A stretch of 64,000 nucleotides of DNA from Roseburia sp. Its GTDB lineage: Bacteria > Bacillota > Clostridia > Lachnospirales > Lachnospiraceae. The stretch is from assembly GCA_026168605.1 (NCBI GenBank), contig JAPFDX010000019.1:1-64000 (forward strand), read 5' to 3'. Positions 40-44,701 of the stretch are shown piece by piece. Each line of letters starts with the position of its first letter. Position 1 is the stretch's first letter. The position numbers and the translations under genes were made by a program. Below the pieces are notes generated by a model. That model did not search any database, had not been told where the DNA came from, and saw only the letters and a list, made by a program, of their open reading frames with translations.

Positions 40-279
40 TTACCGCTTGTGCTTCTCCCTCATCAGGATGTCCGCGATCTCCCGCTTCGCCGCATCGGAA
101 ATTCCTTTTTCCCGGTAGTAGCCGGAAGTTTTTCCTCCTGCGGAGCTTCTCGCAATGTTGACCTCGCGCGGCGCGTCCACCAGAAGATGGATGTTGTTCG
201 CAGAGCCGCCGGAAAATATCACGCGGACATTTTCCCCGATGTCAATGTATTCCCCCGGACGAAGTGAAAGCTTTAACAT
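40..279 (-). CDS. csrA: CsrA-family RNA-binding translational regulator
   Basis: A 79-residue protein whose first 47 residues follow the CsrA fold: it opens MLKLS, then GEYIDIG, then DAPREVNIAR, matching the beta-strand and DAP-[KR]-x-V-x-[VI]-x-R region that binds GGA-containing mRNA leaders. A basic, helical tail of about 30 residues after the core is longer than in most CsrA proteins. I chose the ATG at 279 because GGGAGG lies 7 bases upstream; an in-frame ATG at 312 has no such signal. In Firmicutes CsrA usually represses flagellin translation and sits beside fliW, but no fliW is seen here. The neighbour upstream is a tyrosine recombinase between inverted repeats, which could affect its transcription (inference). 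Family confident, target unknown. Confidence 0.85.
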   Translation of the reverse strand: MLKLSLRPGEYIDIGENVRVIFSGGSANNIHLLVDAPREVNIARSSAGGKTSGYYREKGISDAAKREIADILMREKHKR

Positions 280-365
280 AGATAACCTCCCTGTTTCGAT
301 GTATTTTTCCATAAATAACGTGTATACTAGCGGTATCTGTCAGCCGAATATCTGTGTGCCATGCA

Positions 366-396
366 ACACAATGTATATTGTGTTACATCCGCTTCG
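366..396 (-). repeat. Left inverted repeat flanking the recombinase
   Basis: Read on the minus strand, these 31 bases are identical to plus-strand positions 1080-1110. Its inner part is itself palindromic (ACACAAT, four bases, ATTGTGT). Together the two copies bracket the recombinase gene in inverted orientation, as expected for the sites of a DNA invertase. The palindromic core also makes 22 bases (377-398) a direct repeat of 1103-1124, so deletion is also formally possible. Confidence 0.85.
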
Positions 397-401
397 TTGT
401 T

Positions 402-995
402 TTATTTCAGGCAAATGCTTTTAAACACCTCGTCACGGTCGTCCTGCTCGATGCCGAGATAGCGCTGCGTGATGGAAAACGAGGAGTGGTGATAAATCTC
501 CATCAGAAGAACGGGTGGCGTCCCCTGCTTCCACGCATAATAGCCGAAGGTCTTGCGTAGGGAATGAGGACTGATCACGCCGGAAAGCTGGCATTTCTCG
601 GCAGCCTTCCGAATGATCCGGTACGCCTGCACCCGGCAGATATGCGCGCCGCCGTTTCCCTCAAACAAAAATCTCCCGCCACACAGCGGGGCGTCCTCCT
701 TTTCTTCCCGATCTTTCCGATAGTCCTCCAGCGCCAGACGGATCCCCTCGTTGATAAAAATGCAGGTTTTCTTCCCCGTTTTCGCCTCGGTGAGGGAAAG
801 ATGCCTGCAAAAGGTCTGCCTCTGCGCGTCGTACACATCCTCCCAGCGCAGCGAAAGAAGGTCCGAGACGCGGAGCGCCGTGTTCAGCCCCATCACCAAA
901 AGCAACTGATTGCGCGTATTTTTTTCTTCCTCTCTGTAATAATTGATGAACTTTTCCAAATCGTTCCTGTCCCTGATCGGTTGTGCTGTATTCAT
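402..995 (-). CDS. Tyrosine recombinase (short integrase)
   Basis: A 197-residue site-specific recombinase of the phage integrase family. All catalytic residues are visible: Arg42 in TALRVSDLL, Lys72, His144 and Arg147 in PHSLRKTF, His169/170, and the nucleophile Tyr179 in ITQRYLG. It is short because the usual N-terminal SAM-like arm/core-binding domain is almost absent. The ATG at 995 has AGGGAGG 7 bases upstream; the longer reading from 1097 starts inside the palindrome and has no ribosome site. It lies between 31-bp inverted repeats and directly upstream of csrA in the same direction. Short recombinases flanked by inverted repeats often act as DNA invertases on their own cassette; that role is inferred here. 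Confidence 0.9.
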   Translation of the reverse strand: MNTAQPIRDRNDLEKFINYYREEEKNTRNQLLLVMGLNTALRVSDLLSLRWEDVYDAQRQTFCRHLSLTEAKTGKKTCIFINEGIRLALEDYRKDREEKEDAPLCGGRFLFEGNGGAHICRVQAYRIIRKAAEKCQLSGVISPHSLRKTFGYYAWKQGTPPVLLMEIYHHSSFSITQRYLGIEQDDRDEVFKSICLK

Positions 996-1031
996 ACCAT
1001 TCCTCCCTGAATTATTTTTCCGTTTTAATTT

Positions 1032-1060
1032 TTTTGAAATAAGGGTAAAGTATTTCAAAA
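1032..1060. promoter_or_regulatory. Inverted repeat in recombinase promoter region
   Basis: TTTTGAAATA (1032-1041) and TATTTCAAAA (1051-1060) form a perfect 10-bp inverted repeat with a 9-base spacer, between the recombinase start and the right flanking repeat. It could be an operator or a recombinase arm site. I could not place a convincing -35/-10 pair here. Confidence 0.5.
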
Positions 1061-1079
1061 TTGCGCCGATATAAAAAAT

Positions 1080-1121
1080 GAAGCGGATGTAACACAATAT
1101 ACATTGTGTTACATCCGCTTC
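1080..1121. repeat. 42-bp palindrome: right recombinase repeat and copA terminator
   Basis: Perfect 19-base arms (GAAGCGGATGTAACACAAT and its complement) around a 4-base loop. Its left 31 bases are the inverted copy of 366-396. On the minus strand it begins 34 bases after the copA stop codon and is followed by ATTTTTTAT, so it can also work as a rho-independent terminator for copA. The two roles are not exclusive. Confidence 0.8.
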
Positions 1122-1155
1122 GTTTTGCTCTTATCTTCTGTTTTTATGAAATTTT

Positions 1156-26797: not shown

Positions 26798-27019
26798 TTT
26801 TCAGATGATATTCTTTTTGTTCAGGATTCCGAAGCTAAGAACTTCTAAAATGTTCTTAAGTATCGGTAATATAATAGGAACGCAATCGCCCTCTATGCGC
26901 CATCCATGACGCAATTCGGGCTTTCGCCGGCATCCTTGCCGTCGAATTGCTGTAACCTGACAGAACATTAAGAAGTTCTAAGCTTCTCCATATTCACAAA
27001 TCAGAATATCATCTGAAAA
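26798..27019. repeat. Long-hairpin repeat family 2, copy C
   Basis: A 222-bp element with perfect 17-bp terminal inverted repeats (TTTTCAGATGATATTCT). Inside, GAAGCTAAGAACTTCTAAAATG-type sequence on the left pairs with GAAGCTTAGAACTTCTTAATG-type on the right, and the middle holds small hairpins (TGCGCCATCCATGACGCA; CGGCATCCTTGCCG; GCAATTC/GAATTGC). The core is repeated, in opposite orientation, at 44468-44701. No ORF. It sits between the RND gene and a small membrane protein gene. Confidence 0.8.
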
Positions 27020-44467: not shown

Positions 44468-44701
44468 GGCAAAATACACAAATGATATTCTGATTTGTGA
44501 ATATGGAGAAGCTTAGAACTTCTTAATGTTCTGCCAATTTCCAGCGATTCGACGGCAGGGATGCCGGCGAAAGCCCGAACTGCGCCACGGATGGCGCATA
44601 GAGGGCGGTTGCGTTCCTATATATTCCCGATACACAGAACATTTTAGAAGTTCTTGGCTTCGGAATCCTGAACAAAAAGAATACCATTTGTGTATTTTGT
44701 C
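44468..44701. repeat. Long-hairpin repeat family 2, copy D
   Basis: A 234-bp element whose core is the reverse complement of copy C at 26798-27019. Terminal arms are GGCAAAATACACAAATGATA plus TTCT on the left and the near-perfect complement (two mismatches) on the right. These outer arms differ from those of copy C, though each copy is self-complementary. Fills much of the gap upstream of the ABC exporter; no ORF. Confidence 0.8.

Follow-up and report, generated by a model that had tools for sequence, protein, structure and literature searches.

The window, a stretch of 64,000 nucleotides, comprises bases 1-64000 of contig C26, i.e. the start of that contig, in a genome of 2.73 Mb assembled in 50 contigs. 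At its beginning, a recombinase gene between inverted repeats lies next to a csrA-like gene, here termed csrA', and the following features were identified.

40..279, minus strand: csrA-like gene (csrA'), 79 amino acids, with a Pfam CsrA domain; presumed first gene of a csrA'-flagellin operon
361..402, no strand: putative csrA-proximal recombination site, one side of an inverted pair (93%), with a palindromic core at 365-384 and the centre GTAT
402..995, minus strand: tyrosine recombinase, 197 amino acids (Pfam PF00589), directed toward csrA' as assembled
1046..1072, plus strand: predicted sigma-28-type promoter, TAAA-N15-GCCGATAT, inside the cassette beside the distal repeat and pointing away from csrA'
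1073..1126, no strand: putative csrA-distal recombination site, with a core at 1091-1110, the centre ATAC and an extended palindrome at 1075-1126

The original prediction described a short tyrosine recombinase with intact catalytic residues between two identical 31-bp inverted repeats, the right one within a palindrome, with csrA downstream, and all but one detail of this anatomy stands. The sole Pfam match of the 402-995 product is Phage_integrase (E 9.4e-24), which places it in the tyrosine family and not among the serine (Hin-type) recombinases. Its alignment with XerA (4a8e) spans the positions that we take to be the R, K, HxxR, H and Y motifs, and the residues are in place. The protein is like FimB/FimE-type DNA invertases in being a short tyrosine recombinase, but its scores against the NCBIfam models PRK09871 (43.2 bits, cut-off 222) and PRK09870 (31.7 bits, cut-off 221) fall far below the cut-offs.

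The gene is enclosed by an inverted pair of 42-nt arms (361-402 and 1073-1114, 93% complementarity), within which 31 bp are exactly identical at 365-395 and 1080-1110; the right repeat lies where it had been placed and the left one is one base off. The site cores, GTAT on the left and ATAC on the right, are reverse complements, i.e. one core in inverted orientation. The palindrome containing the right repeat has 24-nt arms at 1075-1098 and 1103-1126 (96%), and this distal site scans as a terminator, with an RNA fold of -38.2 kcal/mol (z -9.67); the left repeat folds weakly (z -1.35). The repeat pair scores 34.5, against 1 of 325 shuffled flank pairs that reached at least 15 and a top shuffled score of 16. 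That the repeats are merely terminator copies found at many loci, a possibility raised with the original prediction, was rejected: the 34-nt repeat pattern has three genome matches with up to 3 mismatches, every one at the window locus, and occurs at no second locus. The 20-nt core alone has 3 more places in the genome, with 3 mismatches each, compared with 1 match per strand in a chance control. The bounds of the putative invertible segment were placed at about 365-1110, giving some 0.7 kb in which the recombinase gene and the promoter lie together between the repeats.

The start codon of csrA' (277-279) is about 86 bases from the left repeat. Its product scores 56.4 bits against Pfam CsrA (PF02599), above the gathering cut-off of 27, and remains below both NCBIfam csrA cut-offs (24.7 against 73, and 23.4 against 70.1); judged by these scores, csrA' is a divergent CsrA-domain gene. 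In total, five CsrA-domain genes are present in the genome: an ordinary one on C15 (92.7 bits), one on C47, and three near-identical copies on C26, C38 and C9, each of which adjoins a recombinase. These three copies share 96.7 to 97.1% of their DNA and the adjoining recombinases only 48 to 65% of their residues, which suggests that csrA' has been homogenised among the three loci. On C38, the ORF after csrA' encodes a 490-aa flagellin. For the window we infer such a flagellin, because C26 ends 39 bp beyond the csrA' stop; C9 ends about 40 bp past its csrA. Searches with PF00669 (5 matches) and PF00700 (4 matches) found no flagellin for C26 or C9 in the assembly; the matches lie solely on C38, C47, C15 and C18. 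A Csr regulator had been named as the target of the switch; with csrA' divergent and one of five such genes, and with its C38 copy preceding a flagellin, an alternative flagellin operon is a likelier object of the switch than global Csr control. On C47 (L115:1546-3376, minus strand), a csrA-like gene precedes a flagellin gene, and the ORF list shows no adjoining recombinase.

Related recombinase loci were gathered from a genome-contig scan (34 loci), from family draws (32 of 299 genomes at E<=1e-15 and 30 of 397 at 1e-35), from a genus draw (25 of 62 genomes at 1e-30) and from fetched regions, and removal of duplicates of one gene left 99 distinct recombinase genes. Within 3 kb of csrA or fliC lie 72 of the 99; the other 27 have neither in the sequence examined, which in several cases is cut short by a contig edge. 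Inverted repeats with a score of at least 15 surround 60 of the 72 adjacent recombinases, and a promoter is found inside 52 of these 60 cassettes (window included), 50 pointing away from csrA (OFF) and 2 toward it (ON). Putative self-inverting flagellar-promoter cassettes for csrA'-flagellin operons were found in many Lachnospiraceae. The same counts hold what tells against a switch: ON in just 2 of 52, repeats with no recognised promoter in 8 of 72, and no repeat in 12 of 72. At 2 of the 60 loci the contig breaks off 20 bp or less from the distal site, which was not used as a sign of mixed orientation.

Controls were run on the first 65 adjacent loci. A score of at least 15 was reached by 55 of the 65 true flank pairs, whereas cross-locus pairs did so in 92 of 650 cases and shuffled pairs in 1 of 325. 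Promoters were found at 48 of these loci, against about one match expected in cassette intergenic DNA at a background rate of 22 matches in 518,600 control strand-bases. Over all 72 loci, the inverted score was higher than the direct score in 61, lower in 7 and tied in 4; direct scores of at least 15 occur in 25 of the 72, which near-palindromic sites permit. A comparison of cores favours the inverted over the direct arrangement in 56 of 57 loci, a result biased because the pairs were picked by inverted score, and the 72-locus comparison is the fairer test.

The non-adjacent recombinases were rejected as a clean negative control and make a weak one, with repeats in 5 of the 27 and a promoter match in 6. 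A repeat scan of six solitary recombinases gave mostly none, with a pair at L039 and half a site at L101. The former (L039:3773-4663) is a repeat-flanked recombinase with a sigma-28-like match and no csrA or fliC near, and is perhaps an orphan cassette. Three others, L020, L022 and L105, have recombinases between inverted repeats (scores 18, 25 and 31) with no csrA, fliC or sigma-28 match; ORFs near them resemble, by eye, sugar-nucleotide or glycosyltransferase genes, and these cassettes are perhaps invertible promoters of surface polysaccharide genes. At L067 (3185-4395), a fragment of a recombinase passes into the C-terminal stretch of a flagellin encoded on the opposite strand; the locus is either rearranged or an assembly chimera.

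A phylogenetic tree of the recombinases was built from 84 rows, 4 of 88 being left out as fragments. It contains a supported 14-row clade (98/88) that includes the window protein; in the 11 OFF rows of this clade the recombinase is directed toward csrA, and in OFF rows outside it the recombinase is directed away. Recombinase and sigma-28-type promoter both point away from csrA in 37 of the 50 OFF loci. One ON locus, L066, belongs to the clade of the window protein and the second, L092, to the other group; each nests among OFF relatives in the tree, and in both the recombinase and the promoter are reversed together. In all 7 comparisons made by nucleotide alignment, of L092 with five OFF loci and of L066 with L041 (OFF) and L042 (no promoter recognised), csrA runs parallel whereas the cassette runs antiparallel. 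As aligned, the cassette, conserved in its anatomy, has inverted between homologous loci in both recombinase groups, and the flipped arrangement that was to be sought in related genomes is found at L092 and L066. Both orientations were seen between genomes only. The site pair of the ON locus L092/L157 scores 18 direct and 16 inverted, the direct score being the higher because the core is nearly symmetric. The ON cassette of L066, about 2.8 kb long, has an extra long ORF, ATPase-like by eye, between recombinase and promoter.

As originally proposed, an invertase cassette probably switches the adjoining csrA, and flipped related loci exist. In the fuller reading reached here, to which we assign a probability of about 0.83 from comparative sequence evidence, a self-inverting promoter cassette (about 365-1110), the tyrosine-recombinase analogue of Salmonella Hin/fljBA, switches a csrA'-flagellin operon. 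Recombination between the two inverted palindromic sites, catalysed by the cassette-encoded tyrosine recombinase, would swing the internal sigma-28-type promoter between an outward position (OFF, as assembled) and one toward csrA' (ON). The ON transcript would yield the CsrA-like protein and the alternative flagellin from one operon. Action of the recombinase on these sites, use of the promoter by sigma-28, a flagellin after csrA' in the window, and flipping within one strain are presumed in this scheme. The 1046-1072 element fits the general sigma-28 consensus as quoted in PMC3720852 and is similar to what precedes the C15 flagellin gene of the same genome. Inversion would place its -10 some 124 bp from the csrA' start, as computed from distances alone; the predicted ON-state distance has a median of 102 bp in the 50 OFF loci (quartiles 92 and 126, range 61 to 760), and the two ON loci have distances of 89 and 151 bp.

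Among 64 CsrA-like proteins, Arg is found at position 44 in 64 and Leu at position 4 in 49, which are presumably RNA-contact positions of E. coli CsrA. Flagellin adjoins csrA' on C38 and at many related loci, and 55 csrA'-fliC' leaders were extracted from the 64 loci, some with approximate flagellin starts. No intervening gene was found in the 55 extracted gaps (<280 nt), which leave no room for tldR. GGA hairpins of at least 5 pairs are present in 42 of the 55 leaders, compared with 80 of 550 shuffles, and those of at least 4 pairs in 48 of 55, compared with 206 of 550. The C15 flagellin leader contains the hairpin TGCAGC-ATGGAA-GCTGCA with the loop ATGGAA. Folding of whole leaders was no better than that of shuffles for C38 (z -0.95) and slightly better for C15 (z -2.08). 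CsrA' may act on flagellin leaders, those of other flagellins included, and may repress other flagellins. The CsrA-FliW-Hag loop of B. subtilis is a homeostatic brake. A reading along these lines, in which the switch is correct and CsrA' mainly brakes the flagellin of its own operon via the leader, is a serious contender that falls somewhat short of even odds: GGA hairpins sit in the csrA'-fliC' leaders themselves and the two genes adjoin, but the C15 flagellin leader too has its ATGGAA hairpin, and in Oscillibacter the csrA-linked CsrA is described as enriched on the leader of a TldR-targeted flagellin (PMC13418256).

A stem-loop with the conserved loop TA(A/T)CC(T/C)NGGG is also seen at the csrA' stop in the csrA'-fliC' gaps (e.g. 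L069:2946-3066, minus strand). Of 203 cells in 29 unique sequences, 177 are paired; 1000 shuffles gave a mean of 113 and a maximum of 127, and this covariation suggests a structured RNA. An Rfam scan of the leader at 4 loci gave no match at the gathering threshold.

It is improbable that the cassette has become fixed in this lineage, with a recombinase inactive here and sites that now serve as terminators. The predominance of OFF among promoter-bearing cassettes (50 of 52) and the resemblance of the distal site to a strong terminator would fit such a history, but the recombinase reading frame is open with its motif residues in place, the inverted cores match exactly at the window locus, and flipped relatives exist in both recombinase groups.

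The polarity of the preferred reading, the self-inverting cassette, is opposite to that of the original prediction, because the sigma-28-type promoter faces away from csrA. In the earlier model csrA is ON now, through a promoter co-directed with the recombinase, and inversion would turn that promoter away from csrA and toward the 3' end of the copper operon. Such an arrangement is very unlikely. The recombinase is indeed directed at csrA, and a sigma-70-like match (9/12) upstream of it reads toward both genes (minus strand, 1038-1011), but sigma-70-like matches are about as frequent here as chance predicts (2 found, 1.4 expected), and since the recombinase, like the promoter, is directed away from csrA in 37 of the 50 OFF loci, read-through from it cannot be the shared rule. 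With the promoter facing outward, the assembled orientation looks OFF for csrA', which inversion would switch on. On its far side the cassette has no consistent target: where the flank suffices (52 loci), the longest ORF there lies on the outward strand of the promoter in 27 and on the other strand in 25, so the copper operon looks like a bystander. That a mobile element merely happens to sit beside csrA-fliC operons is scarcely credible: 27 of the 99 related recombinases have no csrA or fliC within 3 kb (several reaching a contig edge), but the csrA-fliC partner and the internal promoter are kept across deep recombinase divergence.

In the flagellar phase variation of Salmonella, the serine recombinase Hin is encoded in an invertible segment of about 1 kb together with the promoter of fljBA, and FljA is regulatory. 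The cassette is like Hin/fljBA in that a recombinase lies inside an invertible segment bearing the promoter of an alternative flagellin operon with a regulatory gene. It is unlike it in its tyrosine recombinase and in the several cassettes per genome; unlike FljA, the regulator here, a putative repressor of the other flagellin, is a CsrA-domain protein encoded upstream of flagellin. Hin/fljBA is mentioned in PMC13418256 and PMC11868660. The nearest published system found is the hin-csrA-tldR-fliC loci of Oscillibacter and Flavonifractor, as described in PMC13418256, and a serine-Hin inverton is already on record upstream of csrA-tldR loci in other gut bacteria. These loci share with the present ones a FliA-type promoter inversion upstream of a flagellin-linked csrA in gut Bacillota, the inversions in Flavonifractor being reported beside serine hin and upstream of csrA-tldR loci. 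They differ in having the RNA-guided repressor TldR and a serine Hin that adjoins the inverted stretch of about 120 bp; here, a tyrosine recombinase is enclosed by a segment of some 0.7 kb, and no gene separates csrA' from fliC' in the 55 gaps extracted. According to PMC5386303, the flagellar switch of C. difficile is also inverted by a tyrosine recombinase, RecV, acting on a short segment (154 bp, 21-bp repeats) upstream of flagellar genes, those of the early flgB operon; RecV is encoded outside the segment and also controls cwpV, whereas the recombinase described here is encoded within its segment, with a csrA-like-flagellin operon as the target. Among the titles and abstracts listed by searches of open-licence PMC papers, none was found that describes a tyrosine-recombinase csrA'-flagellin module.

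Locus L036 is that of R. inulinivorans DSM 16841, which we take to be strain A2-194; its cassette is assembled OFF and its flagellin has 389 residues counted from MVVQHNMQAM. We infer that this is the flagellin ROSEINA2194_00549, given in Table 1 of PMC3720852 with 389 residues and a sigma-43 promoter alone. That paper assigns a protein band to ROSEINA2194_00549, and the report of a flagellin so matched to an OFF locus counts against the switch; a mixed culture or the use of another promoter might explain the band. According to the same source, clade-f flagellins of Roseburia and E. rectale mostly have no sigma-28 promoter, and its Table 1 has a sigma-28 prediction for 1 of the 9 listed in this clade, with an unusual 23-bp spacing. 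Neither "recombinase" nor "integrase" occurs as a word in its main text.

A conserved switch gating alternative flagellins would, if true, give a reason for clade-f flagellins reported without an ordinary sigma-28 promoter, and the logic of Hin/fljBA would have been used independently with another recombinase class. The host immune system recognises flagellins of gut Lachnospiraceae, and gut bacteria could, if the switch is real, turn an alternative flagellin off and on. At the level of the genome, up to three cassettes, in two recombinase groups with different sites, might each gate a csrA'-flagellin operon, with CsrA' from an ON cassette silencing other flagellin leaders, and combinatorial antigenic variation of commensal flagellins would be the outcome; this wider picture is offered tentatively, the chances being rather against it. 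Elsewhere in the window, two TwoAYGGAY RNAs (RF01731, gathering score 43) are found at 44502-44668 (plus strand, 111.4 bits) and 26824-26992 (minus strand, 107.2 bits).
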